Source: Aliidiomarina sedimenti (GTDB taxonomy: Bacteria; Pseudomonadota; Gammaproteobacteria; Enterobacterales; Alteromonadaceae). From it: a DNA stretch of 64,000 nucleotides. Under the pieces are notes generated by a model. It was not told the DNA's origin. It did no database searches and was given only the letters and a program-made list of their open reading frames with translations. Location of the stretch: positions 1 to 64,000 of the forward strand of contig NZ_PIPN01000004.1 in NCBI RefSeq assembly GCF_003986955.1. The letters run 5' to 3'. A program made the position numbers and the translations under genes. Positions 23,145 through 46,396 of the stretch are shown here, in pieces. Numbering within the stretch: the first letter of the stretch is position 1; each line of letters opens with the position of its first letter.

Positions 23145-26100
23145 TTAGAAGTCGTATTTAACACCTACACGAATTTCCCAAACTGATGGCGCCTGAACGC
23201 GCGACTGACCAGATGGTGAGAAGAACTCGTTGAACTGGTACTGGTAGTTACCTTCAGAGCCTACTAAGTCGACATTGACAACATCTGTCATCTGAGGGAA
23301 TCCAGCCTGGTACATCACGCCCCAGTCATCGTTCAACAGGTTTGTCAGGTTGTTGATGGTGAAGAAGGCTTTAGCACGATGGTTCTCCATGAACCCAGGA
23401 AGCTCCTGCTCAATCCGCAAATCGACTTTAGTCCACCAGTCACTGTAGAACGCATTTCGGTCTGCAATGCCACCAGCATACTTATCCAGTCCTGAATTCT
23501 GAACGAAGTCAAAGAATGCGTCAGTGTTGAAATCAGCTCCAAAAACTACGTTTGGATCGTCGATGCCTGTTGGTACGTACAGCAACTGACGGTCGTAGCC
23601 ACCATCGCCGAAGTTTTGACCGCTAAATGTGTAGCTATAGGGGCGGCCTTTGTTGTGGGTACCGACTAAACTAAAGGTCGTGTTGTAACCACTAACGAAC
23701 TCGTGCTGATACGTAGCTCTCATCGTAAAGCGATGCGGAATCTCGTAATTCGAGGTCGCAAGGCCTGGGTTGTTGAAGTCACTAGCAGCGTATGATGACC
23801 AGTTTGAATAGGCAACTGAACTCGTCATTGGGTTAGCATCTTCTGCGTCTGCGTAAGCATAGGCAAGTGACCAGCTTAAGCCGAAATCATATGACTTGCT
23901 CAGAGAGGTAGAGAAGACGACTGACTTACCATCTTCGGCAGCGTTACCCAAAATGAAGTCTTCACGCGCTTCCAGCTCACCGTCTGAATTCTCGAAGATA
24001 GGAGAATACAACGGACGTCCATCCGGCAATGTATCAGTTTGTTCAACTGATCCGTCATAGACAATGACTGAATCTTTTTTCTGCGTGTAAATCAGATCAG
24101 CATTTACTACATAACCACTGTCGAACGAGTACGTAGCACCTAACGCATATTTCCACTCGCTTGGAATTTCAAAGTTAGGATCTAACGTATTAACACCTGA
24201 GTCAGGGCTTGCGTTTGCAACCTGATCGACCATGTCTGCTGGCGCATTGGCGATTGGGTTGCCGTCACCGCTGATTTCACGGTCAAACAAACTTTGGCCA
24301 GTGCGGTCAGTTAACTGAACCTGAGTAATACCGTCGTTTTGATAGCCGTTCGCTACCCAGACGTTCGGGTTACCACCAGAGTAGAGACCAATACCACCGC
24401 GAACTTCCAGCTCTGGCAGGGCGCGCCAGTTAAAGCCGAAGCGTGGTTGCAGCAGGCCTTCGCCATCAAAGTTCTGGGCGTTGCTATACCCGTAGCGCTC
24501 AGTAAAGTTAGCGTTTTCTGCTGGTAAGTCACTGCTGGTGTACCAGTCGTAACGCAGACCGAAAGTAAAAGTTACATCCCAGTCGTAGTGATAGTACTCG
24601 TCCTGCAGATAAGCCGTGTTAATCGCATAGCTGTATTCAGCCGCAGCATCACGCGGGTTTAGGGTGTCTGCGGCATTACCGTAATAAATAACGCTTGGAG
24701 TGCCAGCTTCGAATGCGTCAATTGAGTCGAAGCGATATTCGCCAATGCTGTGCTGAACGAACATGTTGAAGATATCGAACTCTTCGCGCTCGAAACCAGC
24801 TGACAATGTGTGGTCATTTAACTGATAGGTGGCCATCGCATTGAAGAACGTTGAATCATAGCTGAGAGAGTTTGATTGACGAGAGTCATCCACACCCAGG
24901 TAAACCGTTGCCGATGATGGCTCTGACTGGTCTGGGGCAATATTGGTGGTGGCAATCTGAACTTCACCGAAGCCGCCTGGACCATTGTTTACCTGAGAGT
25001 TCTCAACAGATGTTGAACCAACCCGAACTTCGGTAGAGAAGTCATAGGTCCAGTCAGAGAACAACTGAGCCACATGCGACTCTAGCTTAGTGCTACGGTT
25101 ATAAAAGTGGTCAGAGAATTCGTATTCGTCCGAGTCACCATCTGAGCGACGTACGTTACCGCCGTCATTATAATTGTAGGTGTAGGCTAAACGATGGTCG
25201 TCATTGATGTACCAATCTAATTTGACCAGTAATTTTTCATCTTCAACCGGCGCTGAAGCTATCGGTTGACCTACCTGGTAGCCATAACGTTCACTCGCGA
25301 TTTGAGCAATGCGGTCAATCTGTGATTGGGTCACGCCGGCAACCTGAGTAGCGGCTGTCGAGTCGGCAGGACCAAAGGAAAAGTTTTCAACACCTTCGAG
25401 TTTTTCGTAAGCGGTGAAGAAGAATAACTTGTCTTTAATTAGCGCACCACCGACGTTAAAGCCATAACGTTCCTCGGTGTAGTCGCCATTATCAAAGTTA
25501 TCACCTTCAAGGGAATCGCCGCTTAAAGAATCGCTGGTGTAGTCAAAAAAAGCAGAACCAAACAGCTCATTCCCACCCGATTTAGTAACAGCGTTGATGT
25601 TACAGGCGGTGAAGTTACCGTACTGTACGTCAAAAGGCGCGAACTCGACGGCTACTTGCTGAATGGCGTCGAAAGAGAACGGGATGCGCTCAGTTGGGTA
25701 GCCATTTGAGTTCAGACCAAAGTTATCGTTCATGCGCACGCCGTCAACTGTCAGTGAGTTGTAACGTGGGTGAGCACCACCACATTGAATGGCATCACCG
25801 AAACTCTCGTCAACGTATACGCGTGGGTCGATGCGCAGGACGTCTTTAATATCACGGTTAATAGCAGGCGCATTTTCTAAATCTTCTTGCGAGAAAACGG
25901 CGGCTGGGCTGTTGCGACCGATCATTGGGTCGCTCATGCGGCTACCAGTGACTGCGATGCGTTCGAACTCTTCCTGAGAACGAATGGTTACGCTAACGTT
26001 TTGCGTATCACCCAGTGACAGGAACACATTTTCGACGGTATCGCGACGGCCTTCAGGACCTTCGACAACCATCATGTATGGACCACCAACCGCCAGACCG

Positions 26101-26324
26101 CGCGCGTTGAAAGTACCATTTGCATTCGAGGTGAGTGTGCGGCTTGTACCTGTGCGGGTATCAATCAGCTGAATAGTCGCGTTTGCAACTGTCTGCCCCT
26201 GCTCGTTTGAGACAACACCACGTACCGCGGAGGTTGTTTCCTGAGCTAAAGCAACACCAGAGGACATTCCGATGGTAAGCGCGACTGCCGCTGCGATGCG
26301 AGTCAGTTTCGTCTTCTTAGTCAT
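23145..26324 (-). CDS. Oar-like TonB-dependent receptor
   Basis: A large outer-membrane receptor that imports a substrate using TonB energy. The start at 26324 is preceded by AGGA at good spacing and gives MTKKTKLTRIAAAVALTIGMS, a signal peptide ending near ALA-QETT. An ATG five codons earlier lacks such a site. After the signal comes a carboxypeptidase-regulatory-like beta domain (about 25-105). A plug (about 110-235, with SLTVDGVRMNDNFG and INAVTKSGGNELFGSAF) and a long barrel ending in Phe (GVKYDF) follow; 1059 residues. This architecture is that of the Oar group. The substrate is unknown; the divergent cstA and nearby M28 peptidase suggest peptides. The 273-bp upstream gap is AT-rich, and I could not fix a promoter in it. 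Confidence 0.9.
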   Translation of the reverse strand: MTKKTKLTRIAAAVALTIGMSSGVALAQETTSAVRGVVSNEQGQTVANATIQLIDTRTGTSRTLTSNANGTFNARGLAVGGPYMMVVEGPEGRRDTVENVFLSLGDTQNVSVTIRSQEEFERIAVTGSRMSDPMIGRNSPAAVFSQEDLENAPAINRDIKDVLRIDPRVYVDESFGDAIQCGGAHPRYNSLTVDGVRMNDNFGLNSNGYPTERIPFSFDAIQQVAVEFAPFDVQYGNFTACNINAVTKSGGNELFGSAFFDYTSDSLSGDSLEGDNFDNGDYTEERYGFNVGGALIKDKLFFFTAYEKLEGVENFSFGPADSTAATQVAGVTQSQIDRIAQIASERYGYQVGQPIASAPVEDEKLLVKLDWYINDDHRLAYTYNYNDGGNVRRSDGDSDEYEFSDHFYNRSTKLESHVAQLFSDWTYDFSTEVRVGSTSVENSQVNNGPGGFGEVQIATTNIAPDQSEPSSATVYLGVDDSRQSNSLSYDSTFFNAMATYQLNDHTLSAGFEREEFDIFNMFVQHSIGEYRFDSIDAFEAGTPSVIYYGNAADTLNPRDAAAEYSYAINTAYLQDEYYHYDWDVTFTFGLRYDWYTSSDLPAENANFTERYGYSNAQNFDGEGLLQPRFGFNWRALPELEVRGGIGLYSGGNPNVWVANGYQNDGITQVQLTDRTGQSLFDREISGDGNPIANAPADMVDQVANASPDSGVNTLDPNFEIPSEWKYALGATYSFDSGYVVNADLIYTQKKDSVIVYDGSVEQTDTLPDGRPLYSPIFENSDGELEAREDFILGNAAEDGKSVVFSTSLSKSYDFGLSWSLAYAYADAEDANPMTSSVAYSNWSSYAASDFNNPGLATSNYEIPHRFTMRATYQHEFVSGYNTTFSLVGTHNKGRPYSYTFSGQNFGDGGYDRQLLYVPTGIDDPNVVFGADFNTDAFFDFVQNSGLDKYAGGIADRNAFYSDWWTKVDLRIEQELPGFMENHRAKAFFTINNLTNLLNDDWGVMYQAGFPQMTDVVNVDLVGSEGNYQYQFNEFFSPSGQSRVQAPSVWEIRVGVKYDF

Positions 26325-26597
26325 GCCATTTTCCTGCATAGTTTGTGAGAGAGTTTGAGAGTAAAGCTTGTTGAATGCGTGAGGTTACATCCAGTTTGTG
26401 ACAACACCATGACAATGTGGCGCGTATTTTATGACAAAAAGTAACCAATTTCATACTTTTTTCATGTTTATTTACTCCAAAAATGGAACTTTCTGCCATT
26501 TTCGGTATTTGTCACCCTATACCTTAGTCTAATCTCGGGCTATAAACGTACATGGTAGAATCTCTAATTCTGTAAATATACCTAGTGAGAGCAACAC

Positions 26598-28286
26598 ATG
26601 AATGCAATCTTCGTACTCATAGTAGGGCTTGGCGCAATGGCGCTTGGTTACGTCTTTTACTCGAAGTTCATTGCCGAACGGATTTATCGGCTCGATCCTA
26701 ATTTTCAAACGCCAGCGCATGAGTTTGAGGATGGCGTTGATTTTGTGCCTACCAATAAATACGTGTTATGGGGCCACCACTTTACCTCTGTCGCTGGCGC
26801 GGCGCCGATTATAGGCCCTGCGATAGCGGTTATCTGGGGGTGGGTGCCTGCCTTTTTGTGGGTCATATTAGGTACTATTTTCTTTGCCGGCGTGCATGAT
26901 GCCGGAGCGGTATGGGCGAGCAACCGCAATAAAGCGAAGTCAATGGGTGCATTGACCGGGGATGTGGTTGGAACTCGTGCCCGCAGCTTGTTTATGATTG
27001 TAATCTTCCTTGTACTGCTGATGGTAAATGCCGTGTTTGCCACCGTCATTGCAGGCTTACTGGTCGATTTCCCGACATCGGTAATTCCGGTCTGGGGCGC
27101 TATTTTTGTCGCCTTGATTATCGGCCAATTGATTTACCGTAAGTACATTGGTCTTATTACGGTTTCTATTGTTGGTGTGATTGCACTGTACGCGTTGATC
27201 GGGCTCGGTCCGGTGATGCCGATCAGCTTACCTGAAACTATGGTCGGGCTGTCTGACCGCGCGATGTGGATTGTCATCCTCTTCGGCTATGCAGCAATTG
27301 CCTCGTTATTGCCTGTCTGGATGTTGCTCCAGCCACGCGATTACATCAATGGTTTGCAGTTGTTTATCGGCCTCATCCTGCTTTACGCAGCCGTGTTGGT
27401 AATGGGGCCTGAAATGGTTGCCCCAGCGTTTAACAGCGACGTGCCCGAGGGAACGCCATCGATTATCCCACTGCTCTTTGTAACGATTGCCTGTGGTGCA
27501 ATTTCTGGCTTCCACGGTCTGGTTGCGGGCGGTACTACGTCTAAGCAGCTGGATAAAGAAACCGATGCCCGTTTTGTTGGTTATTTTGGTGCGGTAGGTG
27601 AAGGCTCACTGGCCTTAGCCGCTATCATTGCCGCGACAGCAGGCTTTGCCACCTTTGCTGACTGGAATGCGGTTTACTCTGCCTTCGGTCAGGGTGGTGT
27701 CAATGCCTTTGTCGAAGGGGGCGCATACATCATTAATAATGGGCTTGGCATTGAGATTGGTCTGGCTGAAACGCTGCTCACCGTAATGGCGGTATTATTT
27801 GCCGGGACCACGATGGATACAGGTTTGCGCTTGCAGCGTTATATCTTCCAGGAATGGGGTAGCATCTACGATATAAAATGGATGCAAAAAATTATGCCGG
27901 CCACCCTACTCGCGGTGGGCACCTGTTTGTTACTGGCGTTTGGAGCCGGTGGCGCGGACGGTTCTGGTGGTCTGGTTATCTGGCCGCTGTTTGGCACCAC
28001 TAACCAGTTACTTGCCGGCCTGACCCTGATGGTAATTACAGTGATTCTGGTGCGCATGGGTCGTCCAGCATACTACACGCTTATCCCCTTAATTTTCCTG
28101 TTGCTAATGACGGTTGCAGCGCTGATTCTGCAATTGAAGACATTCTACGCCAGTGGCAACTGGTTCCTCTTCAGTCTGGATATTGTGGTGCTGGTTGCTG
28201 CTATCTTTATAGTGTTTGAGTGTGGCACTACATTGAGCCGACTGCGTAAAGAGCGGGTTGAAAAAGGAATCAATGAAAATTCATAA
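26598..28286 (+). CDS. cstA: CstA-family peptide/pyruvate transporter
   Basis: An inner-membrane permease with about 15-16 hydrophobic segments over 562 residues. Family motifs include YRLDPNFQTPAHEFEDGVDFVPTNK near the N-terminus (in pieces), HHFTSVAGAAPIIGPA, FAGVHDAGAVWAS, and SGFHGLVAGGTTSKQL. E. coli CstA imports peptides in carbon starvation, and its paralogue BtsT imports pyruvate, so the substrate here is open. It is shorter than E. coli CstA (701), as in many CstA proteins. GAGAG lies before the start. Its end overlaps the next small gene by 14 bp. Confidence 0.92.
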   Translation: MNAIFVLIVGLGAMALGYVFYSKFIAERIYRLDPNFQTPAHEFEDGVDFVPTNKYVLWGHHFTSVAGAAPIIGPAIAVIWGWVPAFLWVILGTIFFAGVHDAGAVWASNRNKAKSMGALTGDVVGTRARSLFMIVIFLVLLMVNAVFATVIAGLLVDFPTSVIPVWGAIFVALIIGQLIYRKYIGLITVSIVGVIALYALIGLGPVMPISLPETMVGLSDRAMWIVILFGYAAIASLLPVWMLLQPRDYINGLQLFIGLILLYAAVLVMGPEMVAPAFNSDVPEGTPSIIPLLFVTIACGAISGFHGLVAGGTTSKQLDKETDARFVGYFGAVGEGSLALAAIIAATAGFATFADWNAVYSAFGQGGVNAFVEGGAYIINNGLGIEIGLAETLLTVMAVLFAGTTMDTGLRLQRYIFQEWGSIYDIKWMQKIMPATLLAVGTCLLLAFGAGGADGSGGLVIWPLFGTTNQLLAGLTLMVITVILVRMGRPAYYTLIPLIFLLLMTVAALILQLKTFYASGNWFLFSLDIVVLVAAIFIVFECGTTLSRLRKERVEKGINENS

Positions 28287-35209: not shown

Positions 35210-35357
35210 AGGGTGAGGTCCTTGTTTTTTAATTCTTAATTTGGATTAGCCTAGCAGCTAAAGGTTAAAACTGGTTACAATTTTTTACTGCATGATCTGT
35301 TGCCAGCAATGCATACTAAAGTTATCAGCGTCAGGATCGAAAATACGGGAGATTTCT

Positions 35358-36755
35358 ATGTATCCACGAGGGTATCCAACAGCAAAAACTATTGGGGCTA
35401 TTGCTGCTCTGGCAGCAGGCTTGCTAAGCCCCTTGGGCAGTGCCAACGGCGCTGATATTTCTACTGCTGTTCAGGCTCGCATTGAAGGCGACAGCTCAGG
35501 TGGATGTCTGGCGGTAGGGCGAATCCAGGTAATTGAGGACGGTGCAGATATCAGGCGCGAGACCACTTTCGCCTGTGCGGACAATGAAACAAACAAGCCT
35601 GACGCCCGCACAGTTTTTGAAATAGGCTCCATCAGTAAAGCAATGCTTGGCGTCTTAGCAGCCGATTTGGTGCTGCAAGGGGAGCTTGATATTGAGCGTC
35701 CGGTAGCGGATTACCTGCCTTACTCTGGTCCACCGGACAGCGCTGAGACCATGTTGGTGCGTCACCTGCTAACTCATACCTCCGGGCTGCCGCGGCTACC
35801 CGCTTTGCAACCAGCGGACCATGAAGACCCTTATGCAGACTTCACCGACGAAGCTTTGTGGCACTCGTTTGAGAACGCGCCACTGGCAAGCGAGCCGGGA
35901 GCGGAGTACAGCTACTCAAATTTTGCTTTCATGATCCTATCTAAGCTCATTGCGGAGGTGACCGGGCAGTCGCTGCAGGATTATTACCAGACGCGTTTAT
36001 TTGAGCCACTGGCAATGGAGCATTCCGGCTTCGGGCTGGAAACCATTGAAGGGCGCCTGGCGAATGGGGATGCGGCTAAAAACTGGAATTTCCCTAAGGA
36101 TATGGAAGCCGTCGGAGGAGTGCGCAGCAGCTTACATGACATGCTTAATTTTGCGCAGTTACAGCTCGGCTTAGGACCACCTGAACTGGTCGATGCGGCT
36201 CAGCAATCGCATCAGCTGCTGGCCGAGGTCGGGGAGCACAGTATCGCCTGGGGCTGGATGCTGCATGAGCGCAACAATCATCAGTATATTTTGCACGGGG
36301 GTGGCACGGGTGGTTTCAATGCGGTAATTATTATTGAACCTGCAGAACAGCAGGCGGTGGTGGTATTGGCTAATGCCGCGCTCTATAACACTCAGGACGT
36401 GCAATCGCTGGGACTGCATTTACTGGATGAGTCTGTCGAACCTGGTCTGGCGCACCGCGTAGCCGCTCAGCCCGAGGCATTGAGCCTTGACGACTATGAG
36501 GGCGATTATCCATTGATGCCCGGCTTTAATCTGCGTATTTTTGTTGAAGATAACCAGCTGTACTTGCAGGCAAGCGGGCAGCCTGCGGCACCTCTTAATT
36601 ATCAGAGTGAAGATACTTTTGAAAATCTTCAGCATGGCGTCGAAATCGAATTTGAACGTGACGAAGACAGGCACGTTAGCGGGCTGGAACTGCGGCAATT
36701 CGGGCAGACGTTGAGCGGGCCACGGGAAGTCGCGGATGACAATACTAACCCCTAG
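35358..36755 (+). CDS. serine beta-lactamase-like / DD-peptidase-like protein
   Basis: A 465-residue exported protein of the beta-lactamase-related (PF00144-type) family. The start at 35358 follows GGGAGA and gives a signal peptide (MYPRGYPTAKTIGAIAALAAG..., cleaved near ANG-AD). Active-site motifs are Ser91-x-x-Lys94 (SISK), Tyr186-Ser-Asn188 (YSN) and HGGGTGG at 313. A C-terminal beta domain follows. Such proteins include class C beta-lactamases, D-amino-acid peptidases and esterases; this one lacks features proving antibiotic hydrolysis, so I do not call it a resistance gene. Its 3' end overlaps the convergent methyltransferase by 11 bp. Confidence 0.9.
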   Translation: MYPRGYPTAKTIGAIAALAAGLLSPLGSANGADISTAVQARIEGDSSGGCLAVGRIQVIEDGADIRRETTFACADNETNKPDARTVFEIGSISKAMLGVLAADLVLQGELDIERPVADYLPYSGPPDSAETMLVRHLLTHTSGLPRLPALQPADHEDPYADFTDEALWHSFENAPLASEPGAEYSYSNFAFMILSKLIAEVTGQSLQDYYQTRLFEPLAMEHSGFGLETIEGRLANGDAAKNWNFPKDMEAVGGVRSSLHDMLNFAQLQLGLGPPELVDAAQQSHQLLAEVGEHSIAWGWMLHERNNHQYILHGGGTGGFNAVIIIEPAEQQAVVVLANAALYNTQDVQSLGLHLLDESVEPGLAHRVAAQPEALSLDDYEGDYPLMPGFNLRIFVEDNQLYLQASGQPAAPLNYQSEDTFENLQHGVEIEFERDEDRHVSGLELRQFGQTLSGPREVADDNTNP

Positions 36756-37517: not shown

Positions 37518-40190
37518 TTAGAAACGGTAGGTCAGGCTGGCACTGACACTAGTCCCAGGGTCGCGACCTTGCAGAATTTCCCCTTGCTGGAGAATTTCAG
37601 TGCGCTCCCCGAGCAGGTTCTTCGCTGCCAGTTTCAACGACAGTCCTTCCACCGGATAGTAGCTGTATGTGGCATCGACAGAGTGGAACGGTTGCTCAAA
37701 GGCATCGTCTTTGCCATTCACGCCGGCAAAGTTAATCCGTTCGCCAAATACGTTGTAGCTAAGCGTTGCTGAGTGGCGTTCATTGTTGGAATCGAAGCCG
37801 AGCTGCGCGTTAACAACATACTCCGAGTGTCCACTCATGCGACGTTCCAGGTTGGTGATATTGGACGCGCCGAACCGCTCAATACGGATATCTGAGTCAC
37901 TCAGGGTCAGGTTACCAGCGACAAAGAACTGATCCAGCCAGCCCGGAGAGGTTGACCATAGCCCACCTAAACGGCGTACAAACTCGGTTTCCACACCGTA
38001 AATGCTGCCTTCTTCCGCATTACGGAACGAGACCAGTAAGTTACCGTCCGAGCCCATGATTTCAATGCTTTCAATCGGCGCGTCAATGTCCTTATAGAAG
38101 GCGCCAATGCTAAGGCTGTTGCCGGAGGGTAGGTACCACTCCCAGCGCACGTCAGCATTGAGCAGCTTCGAGCTTTCCAGATCCTGAAAGCCGATCACGT
38201 TGAAGTCAGTTAATGGGTCGACGTAGAGAACCGGCGTGACTTCACGTAAATCCGGACGCACTACCGACTGGCTGAGACCAAAACGTAGCTGCATATCAGG
38301 GTGGTACAACCAGGTTAGTGCAGCGCTGGGGTACCAGTCTTCATCCAGCAACGGATAATCAGCAGGGTCACCCTGGATCTCACCCGTGGATGGGCTTAAT
38401 GGCAATGCCAGCTGACGGAAGTCTTCGTAGCGAGCACCCAGTGTAAAGCGCCAGGTGTCATTTAGCATCGAGTCGAGGCCGAGATAAAACGCATCCAGTT
38501 GCTGAGCGGCCACATAGTCGTCCGCCTGGGCGGTAACATCTGAGATGGCGAAGCTCTTCGACGGGTCGAGAATATTGGCATCGGAAAATATATCCGAAAA
38601 GCGCTGCTGCAGCTCAACGTTATCGAAGCCACGGCTATCCAGCTTGAAGCGGTCGACTTCTGAGTTACGTGAGCGCTGGAAGTACATATAACCGCCTTGC
38701 AGTTCCAGCTCCCAACTTGCCAGACTAACTGGCAATTTGAAGTCGATGCTGCCGTTCTCGGTCCGATCTTTCATATCGCCAAAGATATACTGCACCGCAT
38801 TGTCGCTGCGGCGCAAGGTGGCGGTTTGACTACCGTCATCCTCAATCGAGCGAATGTAGCGGTACTCAACTTCGCCAGGTGCGTAGCGGCGGGCGCGGGC
38901 ATCTGTCCATTGCCACTGCATATTGAGATCACTTAGGAAATCAAAATGATGGTCGCCGCGAAACTGGTTAGCAGTCAGGGTGCGTTCTTCATAACGGGCC
39001 GAGTAGTCCATGTTTTCACGGTTCGGCTCGTTGATGGTTTCGATGGTATCGCCAACTTTCAGTTTTACTTCATCGCTCGTATCAAGCAGGTAAATGGTGC
39101 TGCTTTCGAGCGTGTGCATGTTGTCGTAATTCAGCCCGAAGTTCACAATCGAGGACACCTGCGTGCTGTATTCGGTGCCTGAAATATCATCGTAGCGAAC
39201 CAGTGGAGTCAGTTCACTGCCACTGGTGATTGAGTAGTAGCGTTCCTGTTCGTCAATATTTTTGCTGGAACGGTCATAAGCGAAGGAGCCAATGGCACCA
39301 AAGGTCAGTTTATCAGTTAACTGCAGACTGTCGCCGTAGGTCAGGCTGGCATCCATGTCTGGACCAATCGAGGTACGCTCAATGTCCATTTCCCGGTTCA
39401 GGGCGACACCCAGTTCACGGTTGATGGTTTCGGCACGCGCCAGGTTTTCGGCGTTGATACCGCCAAGTTGGCGGGCAATCGGAATGGTTTCCAGCGAGCC
39501 ATACAAATCCAGCGCCTGCTGAATGTCGGTTGGTAAACCGCGGGTGCCGTCATCACGGCCGCGCCAGTCGTCGTCTCCGCCAGCATATTCGAGTCCGTCG
39601 TCTGAATTCAGACTGTTGTACCCGGTACCCAGCGACAGCTCGAACACACGTTCACGTGGCAGGCTTAGGGTACGAATGTTAACGCCGCCGCCGCCAAATG
39701 AAGCCGGTTGATCTACCGAGAAAGACTTCTGCACCATCAGGCTTTCGATGATAGCAGTTGGAAACATATCCAACGGTACCACGTTCCGGGTCGGGTCAGG
39801 ACTGGGAACCATGGCTCCGTTGAGTAAGGTACTGGAATAACGCTCGCCGAGACCACGGACGTAGATAAATTTGTTATCAATCAGGGTCAGGCCAGTGATT
39901 CGTTTCAGTGCCGCGGCAACATCCGAGTCGCCAATACGGCTGATCATTTCTGCATCCAAAATTTCGGTAACCTGCGATTGCTCACGGCGTTCAGCCGCGG
40001 TGATCGCCGCCGAACTCATTAATCGGCCGGTTACCTGAATACGCTCAATGCTAGGTGTCACATTACTGTCGGCTGCTTCTGCGCTCTCTGCACTCTCAGC
40101 CCATGCGGGCTGAGAGATACAAGAGACAGAGGCGAGCGCGAGCAGGATGGCCTTGGCCAGCGGGCGTAAGGTCATGTTTGAACAGCTCAT
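37518..40190 (-). CDS. TonB-dependent receptor paired with large lipoprotein
   Basis: An 890-residue outer-membrane receptor. The signal peptide ends near AWA-ESAE and is followed by an Ala/Glu/Ser-rich stretch. The TonB box region reads IERIQVTG (about 49-56). The plug (about 65-185) has AALKRITGLTLIDNKFIYVRGLG and ERYSSTLLNGAMVPSPDP in pieces, plus FGGGGVNIRTL. The barrel ends in SASLTYRF with terminal Phe. It starts 14 bp after the stop of the large lipoprotein gene upstream, so the two form an operon, with a terminator behind. The substrate is not known; the possible Pho box upstream suggests a phosphorus compound. Confidence 0.92.
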   Translation of the reverse strand: MSCSNMTLRPLAKAILLALASVSCISQPAWAESAESAEAADSNVTPSIERIQVTGRLMSSAAITAAERREQSQVTEILDAEMISRIGDSDVAAALKRITGLTLIDNKFIYVRGLGERYSSTLLNGAMVPSPDPTRNVVPLDMFPTAIIESLMVQKSFSVDQPASFGGGGVNIRTLSLPRERVFELSLGTGYNSLNSDDGLEYAGGDDDWRGRDDGTRGLPTDIQQALDLYGSLETIPIARQLGGINAENLARAETINRELGVALNREMDIERTSIGPDMDASLTYGDSLQLTDKLTFGAIGSFAYDRSSKNIDEQERYYSITSGSELTPLVRYDDISGTEYSTQVSSIVNFGLNYDNMHTLESSTIYLLDTSDEVKLKVGDTIETINEPNRENMDYSARYEERTLTANQFRGDHHFDFLSDLNMQWQWTDARARRYAPGEVEYRYIRSIEDDGSQTATLRRSDNAVQYIFGDMKDRTENGSIDFKLPVSLASWELELQGGYMYFQRSRNSEVDRFKLDSRGFDNVELQQRFSDIFSDANILDPSKSFAISDVTAQADDYVAAQQLDAFYLGLDSMLNDTWRFTLGARYEDFRQLALPLSPSTGEIQGDPADYPLLDEDWYPSAALTWLYHPDMQLRFGLSQSVVRPDLREVTPVLYVDPLTDFNVIGFQDLESSKLLNADVRWEWYLPSGNSLSIGAFYKDIDAPIESIEIMGSDGNLLVSFRNAEEGSIYGVETEFVRRLGGLWSTSPGWLDQFFVAGNLTLSDSDIRIERFGASNITNLERRMSGHSEYVVNAQLGFDSNNERHSATLSYNVFGERINFAGVNGKDDAFEQPFHSVDATYSYYPVEGLSLKLAAKNLLGERTEILQQGEILQGRDPGTSVSASLTYRF

Positions 40191-40204
40191 CGCAGCCTCT
40201 CTTC

Positions 40205-42898
40205 TTAGTTAGCTTGCAAACCAATAGTCCAGCCCTGAGTCCAGTCATAGTCAGCAGACGCTGCACCGACGAATGGAACATTCAGGAAGAACTCATCACC
40301 GCTAAAGTCTTTGCTTGGGTTGGCGCTAATGGTCAGGTAACCGTCGACTACATCGTCGATACCAGCGGCGACTGCATTACCATCCTGAGCCAAGAACCAC
40401 TGTTCGGTTGTCTGCGTAGCACTGACATCGCCAAGGAAAGGTTCGTCACAGGCAATCACCGAGTAAGTCATCTCAGTGGTGAAATTGGCAGCAAGGTCCT
40501 CTGCCTCCTGCGAGTTGAACTCCAGGCATTCACCCATTCCGCTCGGGCCAGTTACCAGCATGTTGTGAAGTTTACCGGTGGTGCCTGCGCGCAACAGAAT
40601 GCCCTCAGAGTCTTTGTCCGCCGAGGTGTAGTCATTTCCGATAATAGTCATGTTGGCAATGACAGGATTGGAAATTGGTGTCGCTGTAAGGTCACCAGAC
40701 TGGTTGTCTGCTTCAATACCGCGGTTGGCTACATCGTTATGAGCTGCAAGCATAAACTGTATACGACCTGTCCAGCCATCCGCCCAGTCCAGTGAATCGT
40801 CACCAGCACCCGTGGTAAGCACGTAACGTGCATCGACGGTGCCGCCGAAGAACTCAATGCCATCGTCGAGGTTTTCATGTACCTGGATAAAGGCTACCCG
40901 GGTTTGATCGCCAATGCCTGCGAAAGTGATACCGTTCAGCTCGTTATCAGTTAGTACTTCGTAACCCGCGTATTGAACGCGGACAAACTTCAGTTTGCCA
41001 GAATCGTCGTTGGCATCGGCACCACCGTAAGGACCTGCATCACCTTCTGCTTCGATATCACAGCTGGCAAGGTCAGCCTGGTCGCATTTATTGCTTGGTG
41101 CGTTACCCAGTAATACCAGGCCACCCCACTGACCTTTGCCAGTGTTGGCATCAATTACATCCTGTAGCGAGGTCATAGTGATGGGCGCGTTTGGACGTCC
41201 TTCGGCGATAATTTTAGAACCGCGGGCGATAACCAGGAAATCAGCACCGTTTTCACCGTAAAGGCGCACACCCGGGTCGATAAACAAGGTTGCTGAGTCG
41301 GCATTGTCGTTGCCGATACGGACCAGGCCATCGAGCTGGTAGTCAGCGCCAACGGGCAAGTGAAGGTTCTCAGTGTAGGAGCCAGTTAGTTCGCAAGTCA
41401 GCTTGTCAGTCAGCGACTCAACCTGTGTCGTACCGGCCGGGCAACTAATCGCAGAAGCGTCGTTGTGTAGCGCGTAGGTCCAATCCAGGGTCCAGTCGTT
41501 CTCGCCATCGAAAGCACCGATGTAGTCAACGTCGTCAAACCAGGTATCGACCTCGTTGGCAACGTTCAGTCCGGCACCCAGTGCAGGTGAAACCGCTGAC
41601 GGGAAGTAGCCACCTAACAACGGATCGTCGGTGGAGTTACCAGGCTGTGCCAGGAACCAGGTTTCAGCGTCAAAAATAACGGTGTCGGTCTCATCAACGC
41701 TGTCTTTGAATGGTTCGCTGCAATGAATAATAGAATGCTCAAAACGTAAGTCACCGCTGTCCGCGTTGTCGACCGTTTCCTGATCATTCAGCTCAAAGCA
41801 TTCTCCCATGCCCGGTTCACCGGTCACAACGAAGTTATAAAGCTCAGCACTGGTGCCGCGACGTAGCAGAATGCCTTCACCGTCGTCGTCCCCATCCCAC
41901 TCATTGCCAAGAATAGTCATATTGGAAATAATCGGGCGGCTGCGAGGGGTCGCGCTGAAATTGCTTGAGCTGTTATCAGCCTCGATACCCCGGTTGGCCT
42001 TACCATTGACTGTGTTGTGCTGCACTAATACGTGCTGCAGACGGCCATTCCAGCCAGCATCCCAGTCCAGCGAGTCATCACCGTTGCCGGTCAGAACGAC
42101 GTATTTAGCGTCCGCAGTGCCGCCGAAAAACTCGATGCCATCGTCGAGGTTATTATGTACCTGAATGTATTCAATGGTGGTGCCTTTACCGACGCCGCCG
42201 AAGGTAATGCCATTCAGTTCGTTGTCAGGCAGGACTTCGTAGCCTGCGTAACGTACCTGCAAATAGCGCAAGGTTCCGCTATTGTCATTTGCATCGGAGC
42301 CACCGTATGGACCTGCATCACCCTCTGCTTCAATGGCGCAGTCATCCAGGTTGGCCTGGTCGCATCCGTTGACGGGTGCCTGACCAAGTAATACCAAACC
42401 GCCCCATTGCCCGATTGAAGTGGCATCGGTCAGGCCGAGCAGGTTCTGCAGCGAGGTCATCACGATAGGCTCGTTGCGGGTACCTTCAGCTTCAAGTTGA
42501 GAGCCGCGGCGTACAACAAGGAAATCGGCACCGCTTTTACCGAACAGCGTGGTGCCGCGTTCGATGGTCAGTACTGTGTTGTCCGCTTGGTCGTTGCCCA
42601 CTGCAACACGGCCGTCTAAGGCCCACAGCACGTCATTGGTTAACGTCCGGTCGGTGGTGAAGGTGCCACTGATTTCGCAAACGGTTGCATTCATGCCATC
42701 CACTGGATCGCCAGCTACCGCCCACTCCGGGCAATCAGCAGTGGCTGGAGGTGGAGTACCACCGCCGCCACCGGGTGGAGGCGTATTACCGCCGTCGCCG
42801 TCACCGCCACTGCTAATGTTGATGTCACCGCCACAGGCAGCCAGTGTTAATGCGGCCGTGACCAGGCTCAGCCGGAATAATTGTTTTAGTTGGAACAT
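40205..42898 (-). CDS. large lipoprotein with two homologous halves
   Basis: An 897-residue lipoprotein (lipobox LAAC, Cys22) with a Gly/Pro-rich linker (about 23-55). The rest is two homologous halves starting at Cys56 and Cys486. Both contain LDG.V.IGND.AD, GADFLV..RGS, MTSLQ, GQWGGLVLLG.AP, AEGDAGPYGG.DAND.SG, YAGYEVL.DNELNGITF, NLDDGIEFFGGT, GDDSLDW and GILLR.GT in the same order. The regular short repeats suggest a parallel beta-helix. I do not recognise a catalytic site. It lies 14 bp upstream of the TonB receptor and probably gathers or presents its substrate at the surface, as SusD does for SusC, though it is not related to SusD. Confidence 0.87.
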   Translation of the reverse strand: MFQLKQLFRLSLVTAALTLAACGGDINISSGGDGDGGNTPPPGGGGGTPPPATADCPEWAVAGDPVDGMNATVCEISGTFTTDRTLTNDVLWALDGRVAVGNDQADNTVLTIERGTTLFGKSGADFLVVRRGSQLEAEGTRNEPIVMTSLQNLLGLTDATSIGQWGGLVLLGQAPVNGCDQANLDDCAIEAEGDAGPYGGSDANDNSGTLRYLQVRYAGYEVLPDNELNGITFGGVGKGTTIEYIQVHNNLDDGIEFFGGTADAKYVVLTGNGDDSLDWDAGWNGRLQHVLVQHNTVNGKANRGIEADNSSSNFSATPRSRPIISNMTILGNEWDGDDDGEGILLRRGTSAELYNFVVTGEPGMGECFELNDQETVDNADSGDLRFEHSIIHCSEPFKDSVDETDTVIFDAETWFLAQPGNSTDDPLLGGYFPSAVSPALGAGLNVANEVDTWFDDVDYIGAFDGENDWTLDWTYALHNDASAISCPAGTTQVESLTDKLTCELTGSYTENLHLPVGADYQLDGLVRIGNDNADSATLFIDPGVRLYGENGADFLVIARGSKIIAEGRPNAPITMTSLQDVIDANTGKGQWGGLVLLGNAPSNKCDQADLASCDIEAEGDAGPYGGADANDDSGKLKFVRVQYAGYEVLTDNELNGITFAGIGDQTRVAFIQVHENLDDGIEFFGGTVDARYVLTTGAGDDSLDWADGWTGRIQFMLAAHNDVANRGIEADNQSGDLTATPISNPVIANMTIIGNDYTSADKDSEGILLRAGTTGKLHNMLVTGPSGMGECLEFNSQEAEDLAANFTTEMTYSVIACDEPFLGDVSATQTTEQWFLAQDGNAVAAGIDDVVDGYLTISANPSKDFSGDEFFLNVPFVGAASADYDWTQGWTIGLQAN

Positions 42899-42955: not shown

Positions 42956-43017
42956 GTGACACTATGGTTATGAAAAGGTGACAACTTGGTGTCACCTTTG
43001 TTTCATTTCAATGACAT
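42956..43017 (-). promoter_or_regulatory. candidate Pho box: phased TGTCA-type repeats
   Basis: On the minus strand, heptamers ATGTCAT (43017-43011), TTGTCAC (42984-42978) and GTGTCAC (42962-42956) start exactly 33 and 22 bp apart, multiples of the 11-bp PhoB unit. Between them, in phase, are weaker units ATGAAAC and GTGACAC. Each strong unit matches the PhoB half-site CTGTCAT/C at six of seven positions. A CATAGT that could act as -10 lies about 11 bp after TTGTCAC. The lipoprotein ATG is 58 bp downstream. The match is by eye and no statistical score was computed. Confidence 0.5.
42974..42999 (-). terminator. palindrome: likely terminator of the ABC exporter gene
   Basis: AAAGGTGACA and TGTCACCTTT are a perfect 10-bp inverted repeat around a 6-nt loop. 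On the minus strand it lies 28 nt after the ABC exporter stop and ends in TTTT, so it can act as an intrinsic terminator. It also overlaps the phased TGTCA repeats, so the dyad could be an operator instead or as well. Confidence 0.6.
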
Positions 43018-44968: not shown

Positions 44969-46396
44969 TCAGAGCTCTGTTACATCAATATGTAAATGAC
45001 TTCCTTGCTGACGAACACTGGTCTCGGCAGCATGGCTAAACTCAATACCCTGCCAGGTAAAGTCAATCGACTCGAGCTGACAGCTCTCGTTTCCGTCACA
45101 CAAGACGGGCAATGAATCGACTTTAACCTGCAGTCGCAATACCGGACTTTCATCACCCGGTGACTGCATATGGGTTGCAGCACCTTCGATAAGAAGCTTG
45201 GTCATGTTGCCGTAAATAGAAATCGACTGCGGCTGCGGCAGAACATACGAGCCCTGCTGTGGCTGGGTAAAGCCTCCCGTACCGCTTGAGAAGTTAACAT
45301 CGAGCCCGGCGGTCGCCTGCTTACTCTTTAAATGAATGGCGAAATCCAGGGTCGCTTCAGTCAACGCGGCGAACTGTTCAAGGTTAAGTGCCTGGTCCGG
45401 GCTACTTTGCTGATAGGCCCATTCGACAAGCGCTTCAATAGGGTAGCGGGCTAACAGGTCATTGATGCGCGCTTCATCAGGCTCTTCGAACTGACGCCAC
45501 TCGGCGAGCAGGGCGTTTAATGACGAGGCATCGTTGATCTGCTGCTGCGCATCCTGTTCCAACCGGGTTGCCAGGATCACCTGGGCCGCGCCGGTCCCAT
45601 AGGAATAACGGCGCAGGTTACTGCTGTTGTGAACCCCTTCAGGGTTTACTTGCAGGTGGTCTTTAACGCGGCGTGTGACGTTAAAGCGCGGATGCACCAG
45701 ACGACCGGCGGTGAGCCCGATGTATTCAGCAGTCCCTTCAATAATTTCAAGCTGGTGCATACGTTCCATCGGTTCAGCGCCCATTTGCATGACCAGTAAA
45801 TGATCAATGGTCAGCAGGTCATCCAGCAATCCGGGCACGCGCTCGACAGGTGCATCCAGCGCCTGCTCCAGCAGATCGCGGCGAAGCTGCAGTAAGGCGC
45901 GAACTTGTGGATTTTTAAACGCGTCAGGGTCGACAAATTCAGCCACCGCGGTGCGCGAAAAGTGGCTGCGTTGATAGCCGTGGAAGGCTTCATGAAACAG
46001 CAGGCTTAAAGTGTCCTGAGGGCTGCTTTGTAAACTCACAGCCGTGGCCACGATATCGCCCGCCTGGTAGTCAATATGAAAGCTGTCGCTGAGTCTTGGC
46101 AGACTATCTTCATAGTAATAATAGCGCTCGCTAAGCTGCTGGTAGTCGCCCTCTGGCACCTGCTCGCTAACCAGCAACGCGGGCCCTTGTCGAAAATAGA
46201 CAATGAAGGGGGTGTTAGCGCTCCAGAAATCCGGCCACAGTTCTTCAGCCTGAGCAGCAGCGCGTTCGATATACTGAGCATGCTCGACCAGCTCGCGCTG
46301 AGTCTCGTTTTCGGTGGCAATCTGTGAGCTACAGGCCGCCAACCAGCTAATTAATAAACTGCTAATGAGTAATGAACGCCAGGCAATAGATTTCAT
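44969..46396 (-). CDS. putative zinc metallopeptidase lipoprotein (HExxH)
   Basis: A 475-residue lipoprotein (LAAC, Cys22) that I cannot place in a named family. A zinc-peptidase motif HEAFH is at 135-139, inside a hydrophobic helix (LSLLFHEAFHGYQ). A possible third ligand, Glu224, occurs 85 residues later in IEGTAEYIGL, as in gluzincin peptidases. The part between is helical; the last 130 residues are beta-rich, with a Cys pair (about 438 and 444 in VLCDGNESCQLES). The two terminal domains suggest a peptidase plus a binding module. It is divergent from the Old Yellow Enzyme gene and has its own terminator. Activity is inferred from motif only. Confidence 0.75.
   Translation of the reverse strand: MKSIAWRSLLISSLLISWLAACSSQIATENETQRELVEHAQYIERAAAQAEELWPDFWSANTPFIVYFRQGPALLVSEQVPEGDYQQLSERYYYYEDSLPRLSDSFHIDYQAGDIVATAVSLQSSPQDTLSLLFHEAFHGYQRSHFSRTAVAEFVDPDAFKNPQVRALLQLRRDLLEQALDAPVERVPGLLDDLLTIDHLLVMQMGAEPMERMHQLEIIEGTAEYIGLTAGRLVHPRFNVTRRVKDHLQVNPEGVHNSSNLRRYSYGTGAAQVILATRLEQDAQQQINDASSLNALLAEWRQFEEPDEARINDLLARYPIEALVEWAYQQSSPDQALNLEQFAALTEATLDFAIHLKSKQATAGLDVNFSSGTGGFTQPQQGSYVLPQPQSISIYGNMTKLLIEGAATHMQSPGDESPVLRLQVKVDSLPVLCDGNESCQLESIDFTWQGIEFSHAAETSVRQQGSHLHIDVTEL

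Follow-up and report, generated by a model that had tools for sequence, protein, structure and literature searches.

A two-domain ElpS-type lipoprotein and an adjoining TonB-dependent receptor of Aliidiomarina sedimenti: a gene pair with a probable role in phosphorus scavenging

The window analysed here is a stretch of 64,000 nucleotides (positions 1 to 64,000 of contig NZ_PIPN01000004.1, assembly GCF_003986955.1) from the gammaproteobacterium Aliidiomarina sedimenti, the genome of which is 2.85 Mb in size. Two adjacent genes on its minus strand encode a putative two-domain surface lipoprotein of 897 amino acids (aa), similar to the published lipoproteins ElpS and FI (40205..42898), and a TonB-dependent receptor of 890 aa, its likely partner (37518..40190). 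The coordinates of the open reading frames (ORFs) place the lipoprotein gene 14 bp upstream of the receptor gene, as a sequence-only reading of this DNA had noted, and a hairpin scan found no terminator-like site in the intergenic gap (40191..40204, minus strand); a terminator-like hairpin (42974..42999, listed without strand) separates the lipoprotein gene from the ABC transporter gene that lies upstream of it. Pfam searches with the receptor revealed a plug domain (residues 69–161, 39708..39986, minus strand; PF07715, E 1.1e-9) and a TonB_dep_Rec_b-barrel match (residues 400–859, 37614..38993, minus strand; PF00593, E 5.1e-24), and nothing further above cut-off. The score of the receptor with the model TIGR01782 (TonB-Xanth-Caul) is 213.2 bits at a cut-off of 310, which places it, by sequence, as related to this model and outside its boundary. 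The only Pfam match of the lipoprotein was a weak one to Beta_helix, under the curated cut-off. The lipoprotein begins with a signal peptide (42833..42898, minus strand) ending in a lipobox, with a presumably lipidated Cys22 followed by GGDI; this cysteine is invariant in 22 aligned two-domain proteins, including that of the window, and a loose lipobox pattern is present in 20/20 fetched relatives.

The lipoprotein was described in the sequence-only reading as composed of two homologous halves with a like order of motifs, and sequence comparison bears this out. Repeat A (residues 56–485, 41444..42733) and repeat B (residues 486–897, 40208..41443), both on the minus strand, were aligned with BLASTP (430 aa against 412 aa) with 218/410 identities (53%), 405 bits and E=3e-144, while the best of 50 shuffles of half B reached 24.6 bits; the motifs GADFLV, GQWGGLVLLG, AEGDAGPYGG, NLDDGIEFFGG and GDDSLDW run in an identical order through each half. 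Among 130 related domains, 49 columns are conserved at >=93%, and 49/49 are retained in both halves of the window protein, including the invariant acidic residues of DDG-E and DD--D (>=98% across the 130 domains). The mature protein has a net charge of -100, compared with values between -9 and -21 for six alphaproteobacterial or Xanthomonas relatives that have a single domain and roughly half its length; such strong acidity could reflect adaptation to salt and was therefore not used as evidence on the ligand.

The pairing of the lipoprotein with the receptor is near-obligate, with a plasmid of Marinobacter speaking against an absolute rule. Profile searches, with presence taken at E<=0.001 for the lipoprotein and E<=1e-60 for the receptor, were conducted on a sample of 98 genomes of the host family, the window's own included. 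Lipoprotein relatives were present in 79/98 genomes and receptor relatives in 79/98, the two sets being identical, and 19/98 genomes had neither gene; beyond these counts, a few genomes (G001, G047 and G065 among them) have additional matches that are weaker and distant. The sequence-only reading had staked its proposal on such co-occurrence, and presence was concordant in 98/98 genomes. In 78/79 genomes both genes are located on one contig and one strand, at most 1.6 kb from the listed lipoprotein match; in the remaining genome, which is 80% complete, they lie on two contigs. The receptor gene is downstream of the lipoprotein gene in 20/20 fetched loci, separated from it by 3 to 705 bp, and follows it on the same strand in 78/80 named loci (80 of at least 550), the contig stopping within or just past the lipoprotein gene in the other two; the two genes overlap by the start chosen by the ORF caller in 13 of these 78 loci, the strand still being common to both. 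Identities of lipoproteins and receptors are correlated over 95 pairs (r=0.85), to which common descent also contributes.

Outside the host family, 60/398 genomes of a phylum sample match the lipoprotein profile, nine of them weakly (E > 1e-10), as do 47/119 genomes of the family taken as Caulobacteraceae. Lipoprotein relatives are also held by 21 plasmid records; of ten inspected, eight show a TonB receptor annotated next to the lipoprotein and one, from Phocaeicola, is without a gene table. The conjugative plasmid of Marinobacter, far from the window, encodes a lipoprotein relative (L189:4539-6116) with no annotated receptor beside it in the gene table. The order is receptor first in three Bacteroidota plasmids (L182:4023-7969, L183:2691-7179 and L190:2022-5516), those of Aureibacter, Parabacteroides and Bacteroides finegoldii, and lipoprotein first in a Hymenobacter plasmid (L187). 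The Aureibacter and Parabacteroides receptors match the receptor profile with E 1e-105 and 1e-110, and their lipoproteins match the lipoprotein profile with E 1e-68 and 1e-71. The pairing is thus retained while the gene order changes, a good argument that the two genes form a functional unit.

Some of these loci have features of their own. Two short genes with carboxypeptidase-like domains and a transposase gene are located near the Marinobacter gene. The Xanthomonas-type lipoprotein of L131 and L070 clusters with those of Caulobacteraceae in the tree, and by identity both the lipoprotein and the receptor of these loci are nearest one another and alphaproteobacterial loci, which suggests that the pair moved jointly between classes. 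The pairs of L067, filed as an Acidobacteriota metagenome-assembled genome (MAG), and L111, a Hydrogenophilaceae MAG, are also close to alphaproteobacterial ones, and their sequences would fit either transfer or mis-binning. The called lipoprotein ORF of Xanthomonas arboricola (L066:9001-10479) spans only part of the matched stretch, so this gene may be interrupted.

Members of this family have been described in print. Le Blastier and colleagues reported ElpS (CC0170), a lipoprotein of Caulobacter crescentus induced by phosphate starvation, palmitoylated, located in the outer membrane, accessible to protease and released in a manner dependent on the type II secretion system (T2SS); elpS is encoded before the TonB receptor gene CC0171, the co-occurrence of both was remarked on in 2010, and the role of ElpS was left open (PMC2996285). 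Lidbury and colleagues described the Flavobacterium lipoproteins FI, FII and FIII as strongly and phosphate-specifically induced by phosphate depletion, FI making up 18.7% of the exoproteome, with 31–36% identity over 50–54% of their length to the Caulobacter lipoprotein (PMC8115612). The window pair shares with ElpS/CC0171 the position of the lipoprotein directly before the TonB receptor, the lipobox and an adjoining receptor of the cognate family, and can be assigned by sequence to the ElpS/CC0171 family in a two-domain marine gammaproteobacterial form. The homology was established via Caulobacteraceae and Xanthomonas loci of like receptor/T2SS order rather than with the C. crescentus ElpS sequence itself: the lipoprotein profile matches named Phenylobacterium, Brevundimonas, Sphingomonas and Xanthomonas loci with the elpS-type arrangement, family models confirmed the order lipoprotein, receptor, gspD, gspE in Phenylobacterium and Xanthomonas dyei and the presence of gspD in Eilatimonas and Kordiimonas, and a Sphingomonas plasmid has, by its gene table, a like arrangement. 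Pattern markers of T2SS were found within the retrieved stretch in 29/80 named loci. A check of 30 loci of the Caulobacteraceae family for the published signs of ElpS (LAGC at 17–20 and Asn38) found none with both; L157 has Cys20 and Asn38, but LAAC.

The window protein differs from ElpS in having two domains; ElpS, as described, is about 50 kDa, of one domain by its size, encoded beside T2SS genes and released after cleavage (PMC2996285). No T2SS genes were found among the immediate neighbours of the pair in the window, by eye and with Pfam, and the gspD of the same genome that scores above cut-off is located on a different contig (C4). The Flavobacterium proteins, compared here by description, are also surface lipoproteins, FI and FII being encoded beside TonB transporters, and their polygalacturonase-like modelling fits the predicted fold of the window lipoprotein given below; FI and FII follow the transporter gene, whereas the window lipoprotein precedes the receptor, and the available text mentions no T2SS genes in the Flavobacterium clusters (PMC8115612). 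For the family at large, both a link to Pho (PMC2996285, PMC8115612) and a polygalacturonase-like fold (PMC8115612) are already on record. Searches of the open-licence literature, read as titles and abstract openings, showed no account of the tandem-duplicated form or of phoBR linkage in Alteromonadaceae.

AlphaFold2 modelling of the 897-aa lipoprotein (predicted local distance difference test, pLDDT, 85.4; predicted template modelling score, pTM, 0.79) indicated two strand-rich domains. A VIA-align search with each half gave, among the 50 matches listed, Z-scores of 18.8–22.6 and identities of 7–16%; the top Z-score among them, 22.6, came with a root-mean-square deviation (rmsd) of 3.6 Å over 283 residues, and the rmsd was mostly 3–5 Å, with three listed rows at 15–17 Å. 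We take these matches to be right-handed parallel beta-helices, and both halves are accordingly predicted to have this fold; structure prediction of each half had been proposed as a check in the sequence-only reading. The closest folds in the Foldseek and VIA-align searches were tailspikes, alginate epimerases and lyases, a pectate lyase and polygalacturonases; Foldseek with the whole model gave matches of like kind with low TM-scores, which the two-domain query may explain. A kinship of the lipoprotein with AcrB-type pumps was considered and rejected: three sequence matches to solved structures had E 0.9–1.1 and offer no meaningful relative, and AcrB-like NCBIfam matches were weak and under the cut-off.

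The fold raises the question of an enzymatic function, in which the lipoprotein would be a beta-helix lyase, hydrolase or esterase cutting a phosphorylated polysaccharide at the surface, with the receptor importing the products. The VIA-align comparison found in the model the beta-helix fold of polysaccharide enzymes (PL6, GH28 and alginate epimerase), the conserved acidic residues mentioned above would suit such an activity, FI–FIII were modelled as polygalacturonase-like, so that a fold of this kind was suggested earlier (PMC8115612), and overexpression of ElpS raised phosphatase activity in the supernatant (PMC2996285). At the same time, identity to such enzymes is 7–16% among the listed matches and a shared fold proves no function, and ElpS preparations, refolded or immunoprecipitated, were reported to be without phosphatase activity (PMC2996285). 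Overall, we regard an enzymatic lipoprotein as rather unlikely.

The adjacency of a lipoprotein to a TonB receptor also recalls SusCD, and a SusCD-like system was the proposal of the sequence-only reading. Its statement that the lipoprotein is not SusD is upheld: no SusD family was detected with Pfam at E<=1, the model is a predicted beta-helix, and the assignment of the pair to SusD/SusC was ruled out on these grounds. The window receptor has no CarboxypepD_reg domain, according to Pfam. Two Bacteroidota receptors of the same family were tested, those of Aureibacter and Parabacteroides, and both carry CarbopepD_reg_2 and CarboxypepD_reg domains, a point in favour of a true SusCD system; no SusD family was found in the two Bacteroidota lipoproteins (E<=0.001). 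That the pair represents a diverged SusD with its SusC is, in sum, extremely improbable. What stands of the proposal is the arrangement and a likeness to SusCD/PusCD in working principle, a surface lipoprotein with a TonB transporter: the window pair may work like SusCD, though it lacks the SusD Pfam families and the SusC-type N-terminal domain and is a member of the ElpS/CC0171 family instead. Another surface partner for comparison is BtuG, a beta-propeller. BtuG is described as a non-SusD surface lipoprotein partnered with the TonB receptor BtuB, the substrate being vitamin B12, a difference from the phosphorus compounds considered here; the principle of a separate non-SusD partner is therefore already known (PMC10404256).

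The relatives of the pair are Pho-linked. Relatives of both phoB and phoR were found within the fetched stretch in 11/20 loci and a PstS-type gene in 6/20; among the proteins checked, two PhoB, two PhoR and one PstS scored above the curated NCBIfam cut-offs. A locus of the same genus (L015) has, on one strand, phoB, phoR, the lipoprotein, the receptor, a PstS-type gene and a PstC-like gene (the PstC score being below cut-off). In an Alteromonas macleodii plasmid, the gene table lists consecutively phoB, phoR, a phosphate-binding protein, a 2-oxoglutarate (2OG)-Fe(II) oxygenase, a 1356-aa 'hypothetical protein' that is the lipoprotein, and the receptor. Upstream regions were scored with a Pho-box consensus, at a threshold of >=11.8 of 14; such sites were present in 15/21 upstream regions of lipoprotein genes versus 8/133 control regions (upstream regions of other ORFs of the same loci, which may overlap coding sequence), and five of the eight high-scoring controls belong to PstS, PstC or DUF3450/ExbB-cluster genes. 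PhoB above cut-off is encoded elsewhere in the source genome. In some relatives, the lipoprotein gene is separated from the phosphate genes by a 2OG-Fe(II) oxygenase gene (L018:5665-6462, L028:9588-10391, L184:4652-5443).

On these grounds, we consider it probable that the Aliidiomarina genes form an ElpS-type lipoprotein–receptor pair serving phosphorus scavenging under phosphate starvation. The basis for this is homology, near-obligate pairing, the predicted fold and Pho linkage in relatives, together with the lipidation, surface exposure and starvation induction of ElpS described in print (PMC2996285). The lipoprotein would be anchored in the outer membrane and bear two acidic parallel beta-helix domains, each of which may bind an extracellular phosphorus-bearing compound or polymer, possibly with a metal ion, bound by the conserved acidic residues, as mediator; the lipoprotein would then dock on the receptor and hand the substrate over, and the receptor would import the phosphorus compound with TonB energy. 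We infer Pho regulation of the pair in Aliidiomarina, as well as substrate binding by the lipoprotein, its docking on the receptor and the phosphorus-compound nature of the substrate. The phosphate esters named as a ligand in the sequence-only reading were a guess in the right direction, given that the relatives are Pho-linked (PMC2996285, PMC8115612). Several marine relatives have, next to the pair, a cluster encoding ExbB, ExbB, ExbD and TonB (L124:13154-16968, where DUF3450 is also present, L181:1-2802 and L186:1-2708), which is possibly a dedicated energiser of the pair. The pair poses a testable question, whether organic or polymeric phosphorus is imported by a dedicated TonB route with a non-SusD surface partner.

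Several observations, the Marinobacter plasmid among them, weigh against phosphorus scavenging by the pair. The Pho-box-like site upstream of the window lipoprotein (42989..43006, plus strand) is weak, its score of 11.3 of 14 being reached by 20% of the control regions, and is not claimed as a Pho box; two other loci of the same genus score weakly too (11.1 and 11.2 of 14), and a Pfam scan of 14 window proteins showed no phosphate gene. In Caulobacter, cc0171 was reported to be constitutive (data not shown), unlike elpS, and the co-expression of the two genes claimed in the sequence-only reading stays a supposition; loss of elpS by deletion had no effect on phosphatase activity, and a method that the authors call insensitive showed no shift in intracellular phosphate (PMC2996285). 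In addition, 8/20 fetched loci are without any of the phosphate genes searched for. This last count would fit import of a non-phosphorus substrate (a metal, cofactor or glycan) by the pair, with Pho linkage as a regulatory coincidence in some lineages. The receptor itself might appear to point the same way: its model (pLDDT 84.6) matches classical TonB transporters in a Foldseek search, and the solved structures closest to it are transporters of siderophores, haem and pyrroloquinoline quinone (PQQ) (PhuR, E 5e-29). TonB receptors, however, share one fold whatever their substrate, induction in Caulobacter and Flavobacterium was reported to be phosphate-specific (PMC2996285, PMC8115612), and iron depletion had no inducing effect on elpS (PMC2996285); a non-phosphorus substrate is thus judged unlikely. 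A sequence search of the receptor against solved structures gave no match at E<=0.1. Within the receptor family, to which the comparison was confined, 63 columns are conserved at >=97%, including 12 Arg and 2 Lys versus 5 Glu and 1 Asp, and this Arg/Lys-rich set of near-invariant columns would suit an anionic substrate.

The number of domains in the lipoprotein varies, relatives carrying one, two or three. Before the tree was built, 5/101 loci were excluded, two being repeats of one genome and three cut or incomplete; the tree, a quick one, comprises 93 domains out of 130, the other 37, all of them single-domain rows, having been omitted for size. The N- and C-domains cluster by lineage more than by position, and the N label needs >=15 changes on well-supported branches. 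Forcing the 32 C-domains into one clade changed the log-likelihood by -1605 units (approximately unbiased, AU, test, p=3e-8), which rules out one ancient duplication with two domain clades. As the C-domains do not form one clade, the duplication was repeated or the copies were homogenised; the tree would be compatible with either repeated duplication or gene conversion. The identity of domains within one protein ranges from 51% to 75%. A single duplication suffices for the clade of the window protein, and the single-domain relative L022 is placed inside the N branch of this clade, which is consistent with the loss of one domain.

The two binding sites that the sequence-only reading deduced from the duplication are plausible to the extent that both halves of the window protein keep all the conserved columns, which makes two working copies, and possibly two equivalent sites, likely for this protein; the duplication is not fixed in the family, given its relatives of one, two or three copies. 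A wider interpretation, which we put forward tentatively and with considerable doubt, is that the lipoprotein acts as a multivalent rod on the cell surface that can be adjusted: repeated gain and loss of beta-helix modules would set how far it reaches, or how avidly it binds, a long polymer containing phosphorus (polyphosphate, nucleic acid, teichoic acid or phosphorylated polysaccharide). It would belong to a TonB uptake route across Proteobacteria and Bacteroidota in which the lipoprotein is unrelated to SusD. As the domain number has changed repeatedly, natural variants are at hand for testing that import route.

The closest lipoprotein to that of the window, by identity and in the tree, is from Aliidiomarina maris. 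Inspection by eye indicated that the neighbours on both sides of the A. maris locus are largely as in the window, and that a counterpart of the window gene 35292-36755 is missing from it. Upstream of the ABC transporter gene, the window encodes a putative 475-aa lipoprotein (44969-46396, minus strand) that matched none of the Pfam families above cut-off. At 23145-26339 (minus strand) lies the gene of a large outer-membrane protein, the domains of which are CarboxypepD_reg and OMP_b-brl_4; this gene adjoins and is divergent from that of the carbon-starvation transporter CstA (26598-28286, plus strand), and the two are perhaps a peptide-uptake pair.

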